Positions 48,978 through 53,137 of a DNA stretch of 64,000 bases are shown one piece after another (the stretch's first letter is position 1; the number at the start of each line of letters is the position of its first letter). The notes below the pieces were generated by a model. It saw nothing but the letters and a program-made list of their open reading frames with translations. It had not been told where the DNA came from and did no database searches. A program made the translations under genes and the position numbers. The stretch comes from Actinomycetota bacterium. GTDB taxonomy: Bacteria; Actinomycetota; Coriobacteriia; Anaerosomatales; Anaerosomataceae. The stretch is from the NCBI GenBank assembly GCA_009668945.1, contig SBEH01000001.1:62001-126000 (forward strand), written 5' to 3'.

Positions 48978-49955
48978 TTAGTCCCGGTTGCAGACCGAGA
49001 CCAACCACATCTCGAGAAGCACCTTCGGTTCGCCCCTGCCTGACTTCATCCTGGCCTCAAGCGCCGCAGCAGAACGAAGCGCCCTCGATAGCTCCTCGGG
49101 CGTGAAGCGTGCCGCCTGCTCCATGGCAACGCGCGCCTGCCAGTCGGCCATCCCGACCGACTGCTGCACTTCGAGACGTGTCGCACCGCGCTCGACCATG
49201 GCGCGCGTGCTGACGAGCGTTCTGATGTGACGGTCCGTCATGGCCAGGATGCCGTACAAGTCCTCGCCATCCGCGATGAGGTCGTTGAGCCGCGCAAGCG
49301 CAGTCGAACACTCCCGCGCACCCAGTGCGTTCAGGTAGTCGAAGACCGACACCGGCGCGGTCTCCGAGACCACGTTCACGACGTCCTCACGCGAGATGTC
49401 GGCGCGGTTCCCCACAAACGCGAGAACCTTCTCCGACTCCGTCTCCAGCCGGCGGAGATCACGGCCGACCGCCGCCACCAGCGCCACTGCGCCGTCATGC
49501 GACAGCCTGCGACCCTTCGATGCGAACAGCTCGATGACCCATCCGGGATACTCGTTGCGCTTCGGCGCCTGGTACTCGGCGACCCCGCCGAGTGCCGCCA
49601 CCGCCTTGAGCAGTTTCGAGTCCTTCCGCATCTTGCGCGCGACCAGGACGAGACACGCCGTCGGAGCAGGGTCCTGCGCGTATTCGGCGAGCACGGCCTG
49701 GCCGGTTGCGAGCATCCGATCGACCCCCCGGACGATGACCAGGCGCTTCTCCGATGCGAACGGCAGCGTGTTCGCGGCCGCGACCACCGCGGTAGCGTCG
49801 GCGGTCTCGCCGTCGAACGCCTCGAAGTTGAAGTCGAGGTCTGCGGACTTCGCGACGCGATCCCGAAGGCGGCGGAGCGCGCGCTCCAGGAGCAGGTCCT
49901 CTTCCCCGAAGATGAGGTAGACGGGCTTCAGCTCTTCTATCGTCTTGACTGCCAC
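48978..49955 (-). CDS. holA: DNA polymerase III subunit delta
   Basis: 325 residues from a GTG at 49953-49955 with GAAGGG upstream; the start matches the family (KPVYLIFGEEDLLLERALRRLRDRV). Continuing features: FNFEAFDGETADATAVVAAANTLPF, RLVIVRGVD, GWVIELFASKGRRLS and the C-terminal collar helices. It opens the beta clamp as part of the clamp loader. The upstream comEC frame runs without a stop through its first 461 bases. holA itself looks intact. Confidence 0.93.
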   Translation of the reverse strand: MAVKTIEELKPVYLIFGEEDLLLERALRRLRDRVAKSADLDFNFEAFDGETADATAVVAAANTLPFASEKRLVIVRGVDRMLATGQAVLAEYAQDPAPTACLVLVARKMRKDSKLLKAVAALGGVAEYQAPKRNEYPGWVIELFASKGRRLSHDGAVALVAAVGRDLRRLETESEKVLAFVGNRADISREDVVNVVSETAPVSVFDYLNALGARECSTALARLNDLIADGEDLYGILAMTDRHIRTLVSTRAMVERGATRLEVQQSVGMADWQARVAMEQAARFTPEELSRALRSAAALEARMKSGRGEPKVLLEMWLVSVCNRD

Positions 49956-52398
49956 TGAGCCCTTCTTCTTCAGCCGTGCCCGAGTCGCGGCGGTGAGCGG
50001 CGAGAACCAGGCGGCCACCAGGCTGCATTCTCGCACGAACGGCGCTCGGGCTTCCACGCCGCGCGGTACGGATGCTATAGCCCGAGGAGCGGACGGCCAC
50101 CTCGATATCGCCACACTCGTCTGTCCGGTACACCCGTATCCCGGAGGTGCCGAGCAGTTCGAGTGTCTCCGGACACGGGTGACCGAAGTCGTTACCCGCT
50201 CCGACGCTGATGATCGCGTCTTGCGGCAACCACCCGGCCAGACCCTCGGCGGTGAGCCCGTTAGTGCTCCCATGGTGCGGCACCTTCAGCACCTCGACCT
50301 GGTGCAGCTCACCTTGGGCGATCATCCCGCTCTGCGCGACGCCCTCTGCGTCGCCCGTGAGTGCCATGTCGAACGCCCCGCGGCTGATCTGCAGCACCAC
50401 GCTCGTGTCGTTCGTCTTCAGGTCACCCGGCGAGTCGCCCGCGGGCCAGATCACGCGCACCCGCGTTCCGCCGATCCGCCAGGAGTCGCCGGCGCTCACG
50501 GCACGAACCGGCGCGTCCGGCCCGTCCCACGCCGCGTTCCCGGGCATCGGGTCACGTGCCGACGCGCTCCATCCCGCTTCGTCCTCCCCGACATCGGGAA
50601 CCGCGATCCACCCGACCTGGACCACCCCCGAGAGACCGCCCGCACCGCCGGTGTGGTCACCATGAGCATGCGTGAGCACCAGCACGTCGATGACCCGCAC
50701 GCCCGTGCGGGCGAGCGCCCGCCGCAACACCGTGGGATCGGAGCCGACGTCCACGAGCATCGCCCGCCCGCTGTCCCGCACGAGGATCGCATCGCCCTGA
50801 CCGACATCGAGCACCGTGATCGTCGCCCGTCGCATAGGCGCGGGCCCGAGAGCGAGCAGTAGCGTCACGCACGTTGCCGCCGAAAGCGCGCGGAGACCCG
50901 CCCTCGGCGCGCGCGGCAGCGGCCACCAGACCCAGAGTGCCGCGGCCGCAACCACCGTGCCCAGGACGAGCGCCGGACCCGCCCCGAGAGCGATAGCGGC
51001 ACCCGGCAACCGTGCCATCCACGAAGCGATCCACGCCGCGGCGGCAAGCACTCCCGCACACGCGCGGCTTCCCAACTCTGCGACGTCCGGCAGCACTCCC
51101 CCTGTGACGGCTGCGCCAAGGCCGAGCAGCAGCGCAAGCGAGACCATCGGCCCCGCATACGCGTTGGCTAGCGGCGCCAGCAGTGAGAGCATCCCGAAGC
51201 TTCCGGCGACGACCGGTGCCGTCATGAACTGGGCCACAAGCGTCAGCGCCAACGTGCCCGCGGCCAGGCGCGCCGGACCGGCCAGCCCGCGGGTCAGCCA
51301 CTCGGTGGCAAGAGAACCGAACAGCAGCAGACCGCATACCGCGAAAGCGGAGAGCTGCAGCCCAGTGTCGAAGACCGACCACGGCTCCAGCAACAGAACG
51401 CCGATGAGCGCAGTTGCCAGAGACGCGAGTCCGCTGCTCCTGCGGCCGATCAGCTCGGCTCCACCGCCGACCGCGAGCATCAGGAGGGACCGCAGCGCCG
51501 AGTAGGGCATGCCGGTCACCACCGCATACGCCGCGCCAGCCGCGACGGTCGCCACGACAAGCGGGCGCTTCGGCACCCGTAGCAGCCTGCACAAGAACGC
51601 CACTGCGGCGCATGCGAGCGCGAGGTGCGAGCCGGATACCGCGACCAGGTGCGTCAGCCCGAGCACTTTGAAGTCCTCGTCGGCGTCCGTGCCCGTCAGC
51701 CGCCGCCGGTCGCCGAGTACGATGCCCTCGGCCAGATCGCCACCCGGACCTTCGACCGAGTGCATCCGCGCGAGCGCATCCTGGCGCCACGCGAAGAGCG
51801 GTCCGGTCGGTCCCGGTCGCCACCCGCCCACCTCGGCGCGCCAGGCGTTGCCAGTCGCGCAAACACCCGATCTCGCCGTACGACGCGCCCACGGTTCGCT
51901 GCACGGCAACGGCTTCAGGATTGCCGCGAACCGCACGGTGCGCCCTACCTCCGGAGCCAACGTCTCTGCGGGCCACCCGACACGAACGCGGGCGCCGTCG
52001 AGAGGTCCGCCTTCGATCCTCACTCGAACAACGACGCCGAACGCCCCGGGCAGCGGGTCGGCCTCCACGGTGCCGGCCCACTCTCGAGCGCCACACGCGC
52101 CGGCGGTGCGCACTTGCCGCTGCCACGCGGCACCCTGCAGTCCCGAGAGCAAGACACCGGCGATCAGGCCGCCGCACAGCAGCGCGGCCACCGGGCGTAG
52201 GGCTGCCCGTCTCCAGCCGACTGCCGCCGCGATCGCCGTGCCGGACCCCGCCGGCAGTAGCGCCCGCAGAGCGATTGCGACGCCGAATCCTTCGGCGATC
52301 CGCCAACTCACCGCTTCGCCGATGACGCAGCCGGCCGCCATCGCTAGGGCGAACCACACGACGGGGGGCAGGTCGGGCCGTGCCGGCGGGCCGTTCAC
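49495..52398 (-). CDS. comEC: DNA internalisation competence protein ComEC/Rec2, with out-of-frame read-through into holA
   Basis: GTG start in a GTGA overlap with comEA. Family layout is complete by about residue 780: DUF4131 (1-200), the membrane Competence domain (HLVAVSGSHLALACA, PYSALRSLLMLAVGG and about ten helices) and a metallo-beta-lactamase-like domain (DVGQGDAILVRDSG, LTHAHGDHTGG, LKVPHHGS). Normally the protein would end near YSIRTAR. Here the frame stays open another 187 codons to 49495, the last 153 inside holA; that tail is Arg/Gly-rich and looks like translated noise. Either the stop was lost or there is a frameshift. ComEC forms the channel for single-stranded DNA uptake. Confidence 0.85.
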   Translation of the reverse strand: MNGPPARPDLPPVVWFALAMAAGCVIGEAVSWRIAEGFGVAIALRALLPAGSGTAIAAAVGWRRAALRPVAALLCGGLIAGVLLSGLQGAAWQRQVRTAGACGAREWAGTVEADPLPGAFGVVVRVRIEGGPLDGARVRVGWPAETLAPEVGRTVRFAAILKPLPCSEPWARRTARSGVCATGNAWRAEVGGWRPGPTGPLFAWRQDALARMHSVEGPGGDLAEGIVLGDRRRLTGTDADEDFKVLGLTHLVAVSGSHLALACAAVAFLCRLLRVPKRPLVVATVAAGAAYAVVTGMPYSALRSLLMLAVGGGAELIGRRSSGLASLATALIGVLLLEPWSVFDTGLQLSAFAVCGLLLFGSLATEWLTRGLAGPARLAAGTLALTLVAQFMTAPVVAGSFGMLSLLAPLANAYAGPMVSLALLLGLGAAVTGGVLPDVAELGSRACAGVLAAAAWIASWMARLPGAAIALGAGPALVLGTVVAAAALWVWWPLPRAPRAGLRALSAATCVTLLLALGPAPMRRATITVLDVGQGDAILVRDSGRAMLVDVGSDPTVLRRALARTGVRVIDVLVLTHAHGDHTGGAGGLSGVVQVGWIAVPDVGEDEAGWSASARDPMPGNAAWDGPDAPVRAVSAGDSWRIGGTRVRVIWPAGDSPGDLKTNDTSVVLQISRGAFDMALTGDAEGVAQSGMIAQGELHQVEVLKVPHHGSTNGLTAEGLAGWLPQDAIISVGAGNDFGHPCPETLELLGTSGIRVYRTDECGDIEVAVRSSGYSIRTARRGSPSAVRARMQPGGRLVLAAHRRDSGTAEEEGLSGSQDDRRAEARLPHLRGRGPAPGARAPPPSGSRREVRRPRLQLRGVRRRDRRRYRGGRGREHAAVRIGEAPGHRPGGRSDARNRPGRARRIRAGPCSDGVSRPGRAQDAEGLETAQGGGGTRRGRRVPGAEAQRVSRMGHRAVRIEGSQAVA

Positions 52399-53069
52399 CC
52401 GCAGGTCACGAAGTCCTTCAGTGCCTCGAACTTCTTCGCGCCGATACCGGAGACCCGCATGAGGTCCTCAGGCGTCGCGAATGGTCCGTTGAGCTCGCGG
52501 TCGTCCACGATCTTCTGTGCCGTTGACGGACCGACGCCAGGGAGCTCGTCCAGTTCAGCGGCCGAAGCGGTGTTGATGTCCACCGTACCTGCCGCTCCCG
52601 AACCACCGCTCGCGCCCGCAGCCGCAGCGGCCGGGGACGCGGTACCCGACGCGGCCTCCTGTGCCGTCGGCACGTAAACCTGCTCACCGTCGGCGATGAT
52701 GCGTGCGAGATTGAGGCTGTCCAGCGCCGCGTCGCCGATACCGCCTCCGGCGGCGCTAACGGCATCCGTGACCCGGCTGCCTAACGGCAGCGCGTAGACA
52801 CCCGGCCGCATCACCGCGCCCGCGACGTGCACCACCACGCACGTCGCCTCGGCGCTTTCGGCCTCCGGGCCCGCGACCGCGCCGTCAGCCGAGGGGGCGT
52901 CGTCGAACGCCATCTCGGGCGCAGGCGCCGAGGGCCAGAAGCGCCAGAGACCGAGACCCGCCACGAGCGCCACAGCCGCAAGAACGATTCGGAGCGTGCA
53001 CGGGCCGAGACCGCCCAGACCCGCGCGGTCGAGCAGCTCGCGAACGCGATCGGATTCGAGGATCGACAC
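52395..53069 (-). CDS. comEA: ComEA family DNA-binding competence protein
   Basis: About 224 residues from a GTG at 53067-53069 with GGAGGGG before it; two ATGs 15-18 bases upstream overlap that site and are less likely. One N-terminal helix (about 27-45), a Pro/Ala linker, an SLBB domain (VVVHVAGAVMRPGVYALPLGSRVTDAV), a Ser/Gly/Ala linker, and a C-terminal helix-hairpin-helix pair (VDINTASAAELDELPGVGPSTAQKIV; EDLMRVSGIGAKKFEAL). It binds double-stranded DNA outside the membrane and hands it to ComEC. Type IV pilus genes are not in the window. Confidence 0.93.
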   Translation of the reverse strand: MSILESDRVRELLDRAGLGGLGPCTLRIVLAAVALVAGLGLWRFWPSAPAPEMAFDDAPSADGAVAGPEAESAEATCVVVHVAGAVMRPGVYALPLGSRVTDAVSAAGGGIGDAALDSLNLARIIADGEQVYVPTAQEAASGTASPAAAAAGASGGSGAAGTVDINTASAAELDELPGVGPSTAQKIVDDRELNGPFATPEDLMRVSGIGAKKFEALKDFVTCG

Positions 53070-53137
53070 ACGACACCCCTCCATCATGAGGACGGAGGGG
53101 GCGTCCGTTCACACAGTGCGCTCGGACTCGTAGCCGG

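Follow-up and report, generated by a model that had tools for sequence, protein, structure and literature searches.

Introduction

A survey of 338 genomes (Palleja et al. 2008, PMC2478687) reports no real co-directional gene overlap of 60 base pairs (bp) or more, names holD-rimI (up to 56 bp) as the longest real case and concludes that same-strand overlaps of at least 60 bp are annotation errors. Here we analyze an overlap between comEC, which encodes a DNA transporter, and holA, the gene for the DNA polymerase III delta subunit, on a 64,000-nucleotide stretch of the genome of an Actinomycetota bacterium of the Anaerosomatales (GCA_009668945.1, contig SBEH01000001.1, positions 62,001 to 126,000; hereafter the window). 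As in the long overlaps covered by that survey, comEC extends at its 3' end into its same-strand neighbor by more than 60 bp. Unlike what the survey describes, the comEC–holA overlap spans 95–1052 nucleotides (nt), recurs in 56 of the 62 readable genomes of the order and carries evidence of selection. The arrangement, an unusual one, looks real and not like a product of sequencing error, and would represent an order-wide same-strand overlap of at least 60 bp with evidence of selection, contrary to the conclusion of the survey.

Two further bodies of work frame the comparison. Under the compositional null discussed by Sabath et al. (2008, PMC2542354), same-strand overlaps arise by stop loss, with a phase bias that follows from composition. 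The same question applies to comEC and holA; in contrast to that treatment, stops are judged here against the synonymous codon usage of each genome, and their depletion exceeds it. For termination-reinitiation coupling, a review (PMC12548453) puts the reported distances between about −50 and +40 nt, with weaker effects up to +350 in one study. The locus resembles such coupling in that the upstream gene ends close to, or within, the region where the next gene starts, and differs in that overlapping comEC genes stop at least 95 nt inside holA; in none of the 56 overlapping genomes does the stop fall within ~50 nt of the downstream start.

As for the protein, the C-terminal domain of known ComECs is described as extracellular, and a C-terminal metallo-beta-lactamase-like domain is reported for about half of them (PMC8579336). 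The ComEC studied here shares the Competence and Lactamase_B domains with the ComECs of that account, and differs from those it describes by an extra, predicted disordered tail of at least 62 residues, partly encoded in holA.

The comEC–holA junction in the window

The main features, in window positions, are as follows (pLDDT, predicted local distance difference test score).

49495–52398, minus strand: comEC open reading frame (ORF), 967 amino acids, GTG start at 52398, first in-frame stop TGA at 49495–49497
49495–52398, minus strand: order of ComEC domains, Competence (residues 227–493), metallo-beta-lactamase (residues 531–730), then the tail
50065–52398, minus strand: folded part of ComEC, residues 1–778, last predicted strand 773–778 (AlphaFold model)
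49495–50064, minus strand: predicted disordered C-terminal tail of ComEC, stop codon included, pLDDT <50 over 790–967
49956–50064, minus strand: spacer from the folded end of ComEC to the holA start; comEC frame stop-poor across the order, peptide not conserved
50027–50037, minus strand: CGTGCGAGAAT, an extended −10-like motif and putative holA promoter in the comEC tail, matching TGTGCGACAAT at 9 of 11 positions
48978–49955, minus strand: holA (DNA polymerase III delta subunit), 325 amino acids, GTG start at 49955, stop TAA ending at 48978
49868–49955, minus strand: first ~30 holA codons; comEC frame kept stop-free across the overlapping genomes of the order
49495–49867, minus strand: remainder of the overlap, probably mostly passive run-on; relatives do have stops here, and codons 42–77 are still somewhat below expectation

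Pfam matches identify both products, ComEC by its Competence domain (PF03772, E 5.1e-47, residues 227–493) and C-terminal metallo-beta-lactamase-like domain (PF00753, E 2.1e-15, residues 531–730), and HolA by PF06144 (E 4.7e-17) together with its C-terminal domain PF21694 (E 8.3e-22). The ComEC tail (window 49495–50100) has no Pfam match at E 0.001. An AlphaFold model built with 29 ComEC sequences (29 of 30 comEC loci were used in the alignment) is ordered to about residue 780, with pLDDT <50 at 781–786 and 790–967. The two genes are read in different frames and overlap by 461 nt, counted from the holA GTG at 49955. Both basic statements of the original prediction, a comEC frame open for 461 nt across the holA start and a tail of ~187 residues past residue ~780, are borne out by these coordinates and by the model.

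Distribution of the overlap among relatives

The comparison set comprised 69 genomes of the order (Anaerosomatales-type Coriobacteriia, environmental bacteria) and 30 genomes from other orders of the class, the window genome (32 contigs) being G000. A match to comEC was obtained in 96 of the 99 relatives and one to holA likewise in 96 of 99, and the junction was readable in 62/69 order genomes and 28/30 class genomes. Left out were G004, G028, G036, G041, G047, G066 and G068 of the order (no match, or genes on different contigs) and G073 and G081 of the class (comEC and holA 2–3 kb apart); G071 was unreadable in the anchor stop scan, leaving 27 class genomes scored. Of 45 further order-like loci 42 were readable, all of them matching genomes already in the set and so no independent replication. 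Across genomes the overlap was measured from residue 1 of the HolA query, which in the window precedes the GTG by one codon and gives 464 nt there.

On this scale, the comEC stop lies 95–1052 nt into holA in 56 of the 62 readable order genomes, five of which exceed the window's overlap. A stop scan starting from a conserved Gly-Asp anchor returned the identical stop in 62/62. None of the 27 readable genomes from other orders of the class has its comEC stop beyond +13 nt. Apparent overlaps in the outgroups G077, G084, G086, G093, G094 and L187 were rejected, as the matches had overrun the true stop and the anchor scan gave ordinary ends; a few codons beyond the true comEC stop from these entered the codon pools of the holA stop-count test.

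The window's phase (phase 1) is shared by 48 of the overlapping genomes, and eight are in the other (phase 2), with the comEC frame open for at least 136 nt in each of the eight. In a HolA tree of 67 rows (60 of the 62 order genomes, HolA <250 amino acids being excluded, and 7 of the 28 class genomes; rooted at the midpoint purely for display, several deep forks unstarred), every one of the earliest-branching order members overlaps, and the phase must have changed at least three times (G033/G046; G053; a clade of five genomes). We infer from the tree that these are switches of phase and that non-overlap represents loss. At three loci, L014 (G010), L031 (G006) and L023 (G038), the comEC frame runs 854–1052 nt into holA, in G010 beyond its end.

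Stop codons in the comEC frame

Ahead of holA, the spacers of the 53 phase-1 genomes are poor in stops in one frame only. Stops make up 3 of 1273 codons in the comEC frame, compared with 30 of 1273 and 22 of 1221 in the other two; two genomes have a comEC-frame stop, versus 23 and 17 for the other frames. The count begins at the extrapolated domain end, and the stops of the non-overlapping G031, G035, G045 and G058 precede it and are not among the three; in G035, G045 and G058 the stop lies just ahead of the counted stretch.

Inside holA, comEC-frame stops were compared with a null given by reshuffling each genome's own synonymous codon usage. For the window genome alone the open run is borderline (P = 0.054, 2000 synonymous reshuffles). 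Taking all 62 genomes, the first 90 nt of holA are stop-free in 48 of 53 phase-1 genomes versus 24.3 expected, and in 9 of 9 phase-2 genomes versus 1.9; the corresponding values for the unused alternative frame are 12 versus 8.4 and 7 versus 4.6. Before holA codon 30, the 56 overlapping genomes have no comEC-frame stop at all, against a raw expectation of 42.1. Stop-like junctions in the ComEC body and in late holA provide a baseline, at 0.75 and 0.71 of expectation for phase 1 and 1.01 and 0.92 for phase 2. Applying the lower value of each pair reduces the expectation to 31.8, for which the chance of zero is ~2e-14. Zero stops also remain after thinning, with 17.9 expected per genus (34; chance ~2e-8), 7.8 per family (13; ~4e-4) and 5.9 when each family is represented by its least favorable member (~3e-3).

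The codons involved offer a more detailed view. Over codons 2–30 of the 48 overlapping phase-1 genomes, no T occupies a third position in which it would create a stop (0 versus 32.3 expected), whereas at the remaining boundaries its count is close to normal (107 versus 121.2). The depletion is in this sense a specific effect. Over codons 2–32, the unused frame of phase-1 genomes contains 63 stops versus 73.4 expected, and the class genomes contain 22 versus 35.5 in the phase-1 frame and 39 versus 44.5 in the phase-2 frame. Counts from the spacer and from holA agree that the second frame is open beyond chance over the orthologues, and over the first ~30 codons of holA selection appears to keep the comEC frame open in the order. 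Past codon 32, phase-1 genomes have 11 stops versus 14.6 expected, then low values over codons 42–57 and 57–77, and afterwards 10 versus 9.9. Among non-overlapping genomes, the first stop within the stretch measured falls at 20 nt in G035, G045 and G058 and at 83 nt in G032, in keeping with relaxation; the stops of G009 (92) and G031 (223) do not discriminate.

Properties of the predicted tail

An open frame may be maintained for the sequence, the charge or the length of what it encodes. In nine close pairs, spacer changes at codon positions 1/2/3 number 38/34/48, whereas the ComEC core has 125/95/397; the pairs include one without the overlap (G045/G058), and gaps are present in several of the alignments. 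This even spread over codon positions gives no sign of amino-acid conservation of the extension in the spacer, and on these comparisons the spacer peptide sequence is not what is selected. The original prediction had called the tail noise-like, an impression that fits the drifting spacer peptide and fails for the open frame, which is kept. Within holA, a change of frame replaces the overlap peptide, and the synonymous identity of holA codons in the overlap is slightly above expectation throughout. The tails are mostly basic, with a mean net charge of +11.4 (up to 90 residues). Selection for positive charge was considered and rejected, the two phases being inconsistent.

Length is the most constant trait. 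With the folded end set 15 residues past the anchor, as mapped from the model of the window protein, the shortest tails extend 62, 64, 67, 70 and 71 residues beyond it. In a one-step model, a threshold placed 76 residues beyond the anchor reaches a log-likelihood of −64.1, compared with −66.3 for 30 codons into holA and −66.2 for distance from the promoter-like motif. Permuted offsets did equally well in 5 of 300 cases for the tail and in 71 of 300 for the motif, and genus-thinned permutation gave a mean p of 0.042 (20 draws of 60 permutations). The threshold evidence thus leans toward tail length over ribosome transit without deciding between them.

Putative holA promoter and RNA signals

The best match to TGTGCGACAAT within 200 nt before holA scores 8–11 of 11 in 62/62 order genomes, non-overlapping ones included, and ends 23–71 nt ahead of HolA query residue 1. 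In the 28 class genomes the best match scores 6–9. The motif reads CATI or CETI in one frame and CDN in another, and its being translated differently by frame points to conservation at the DNA level. In the window genome, TGYGASAAT occurs 11 times versus once for the reversed control, and at 8 of the 10 other sites an ORF of at least 90 codons starts within 250 nt, which carries little weight in a GC-rich genome. These genome-wide matches neither support nor exclude a promoter role; since ORF proximity says so little here, the promoter reading rests on the conservation of the motif. Probably holA is served by its own promoter too.

RNA folding near the holA start shows nothing unusual (mean z between 0.07 and 0.38 for the four stretches folded in the 56 overlapping genomes), and no stable structure masking that start, as coupling by RNA unfolding would involve, appears in these genomes. 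A separate small ORF on the holA mRNA was rejected as a general feature, an in-frame ATG, GTG or TTG between the predicted transcription start and holA being present in 19/56.

Several neighboring features may be recorded. Ahead of the GTG, the holA frame of the window contains no stop over 49956–50285 (minus strand), the nearest one upstream being at 50286–50288, and the longest ORF in this frame begins at 50273, 106 codons before that start codon. In the outgroups L107 (G088) and L094 (G074), the comEC stop (TAG or TAA) forms the first half of a −10-like TAGAAT or TAAAAT, and the holA ATG, within ~10 nt of this element, looks leaderless. Upstream of comEC, an ORF at 52395–53087 (minus strand), which we take to be comEA-like by position only, has a 4-nt GTGA overlap (52395–52398) with the comEC start, an ordinary junction unlike that between comEC and holA.

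A proposed minimum-length tail

The explanation we favor, and to which we give about an even chance, is that a minimum-length, largely sequence-free C-terminal tail of ComEC is overprinted on holA in this order. ComEC would usually carry a disordered tail of at least ~62 residues beyond its folded metallo-beta-lactamase domain, encoded by a comEC frame that runs on through the putative holA promoter, the leader and at least ~30 holA codons. The tail would be translated, and the selected trait would be its length rather than its sequence; the extracytoplasmic C-terminal domain would thereby carry a flexible extension or tether, in most cases a basic one. The cultured Anaerosomatales strains, M08DHB and Es71-Z0120, are described as Gram-positive (PMC9686372), so with an extracellular C-terminal domain this part of ComEC should face the wall. 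The window genome obeys the rule, and its overlap beyond roughly 100–170 nt is probably mostly passive run-on.

Several observations weigh against the tail-length explanation or limit its strength. Family-level thinning leaves P values of ~4e-4 to 3e-3, the evidence consists of sequence comparisons throughout, the lineages are not independent, and the named records are mostly metagenome-assembled. The unused frame is also stop-poor in the eight phase-2 genomes (codons 2–32, 2 stops versus 6.8 expected). Stops in the comEC frame are still below expectation past codon 30, with 9 versus 20.4 over codons 42–57 and 2 versus 10.0 over codons 57–77 (at risk), which leaves the constraint without a sharp boundary. 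The overlap is absent in 6 of the 62 order genomes, through at least four changes on the tree (G031; G035; G032/G045/G058; G009). Synonymous identity is raised in phase 2 to 0.756 versus 0.543 (codons 12–22) and 0.562 versus 0.367 (codons 22–32) in 28 pairs, and in phase 1 to 0.501 versus 0.371 at codons 22–32, where class genomes have 0.478 versus 0.399; some peptide constraint may therefore act inside the overlap. Tail charge is uneven, with 6 of 56 tails below +5 and two of these negative, and Arg exceeds the mean of the shuffles in phase 1 but falls short of it in phase 2. Finally, the contrast between tail length and holA distance is weak, at ~1.7–2.2 log units.

Alternative explanations

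Selection might instead act on ribosome traffic, with ribosomes on comEC crossing the holA start and ending too far downstream to reinitiate, so that holA is insulated from the comEC mRNA and uses its own promoter. We consider this possible and clearly less probable than a selected tail length. A drifting spacer peptide and tolerated frame changes fit it, it accommodates the promoter-like motif upstream of holA in 62/62 genomes, and the minimum overlap of 95 nt exceeds the range given for reinitiation in the review cited above (PMC12548453). The non-overlapping genomes speak on both sides, as 5 of 6 stop ahead of the motif, whereas comEC of G009 stops at −16. The threshold tracks ComEC length slightly better than holA distance, comEC stops are often near the holA start in other orders of the class, and no unusual folding marks that start in the 56 genomes. 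The programmed coupling raised in the original prediction holds only in a loose sense, given that no overlapping genome stops less than 95 nt inside holA and that RNA folding there is unremarkable.

A narrower form of the tail-length explanation, which we regard as rather unlikely, makes the tail a sequence-free tether whose minimum length is set by the export machinery, allowing the extracytoplasmic nuclease domain to emerge and fold before release. About 62 residues would be near the length needed to span the ribosome tunnel plus the translocon. Selection would then concern length alone, and the adjoining gene would simply be the DNA at hand for a tail of any sequence.

A passive origin is disfavored and appears improbable. 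On this view, a single loss of the ancestral stop left the frame to continue until a stop occurred by chance, a course that GC-rich genes frequently permit. It could account for the borderline run of the window itself (P 0.054) and for stops past codon 30 at 0.61 of expectation, compared with a phase-1 baseline of 0.71–0.75. It does not fit a spacer that is stop-poor in the comEC frame only, nor 0 stops versus 31.8 over the first 30 holA codons with an effect specific to stop-making boundaries. Slightly less probable still is a programmed +1 frameshift in the overlap that yields a ComEC-HolA fusion besides HolA. A +1 slip in phase 1 would indeed enter holA, whose frame in the window is open upstream to the stop at 50286–50288, but the eight overlapping genomes in the other phase would require a −1 slip, and visual inspection of the junction sequences revealed no slippery site common to them, which is no formal test.

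An assembly or sequencing indel or a recent stop loss in this genome only, both entertained in the original prediction, can practically be dismissed, as the relatives' junctions show the long overlap to be widespread: it occurs in 56/62 readable order genomes and all the earliest-branching members, and in the same phase in the three readable congeners, while the third-frame TAG proposed as the lost end, present at 50075–50077, sits at codon 774 within the last predicted strand (773–778), so that an indel exposing it would cut the ComEC fold.

Conclusions

Among the hits listed in literature searches, no title concerned a comEC–holA overlap, which is not proof of absence. The gene caller Prodigal is described as limiting same-strand overlap to 60 bp (PMC2848648). 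A caller with this limit cannot represent the order-wide comEC–holA overlap, and comEC or holA is likely mis-called in genomes of the order. The system lets one ask whether a protein tail can be selected for its presence and length, or ribosome transit be selected, with sequence playing little part, and naturally occurring changes of frame and losses of the overlap are available for such a comparison.

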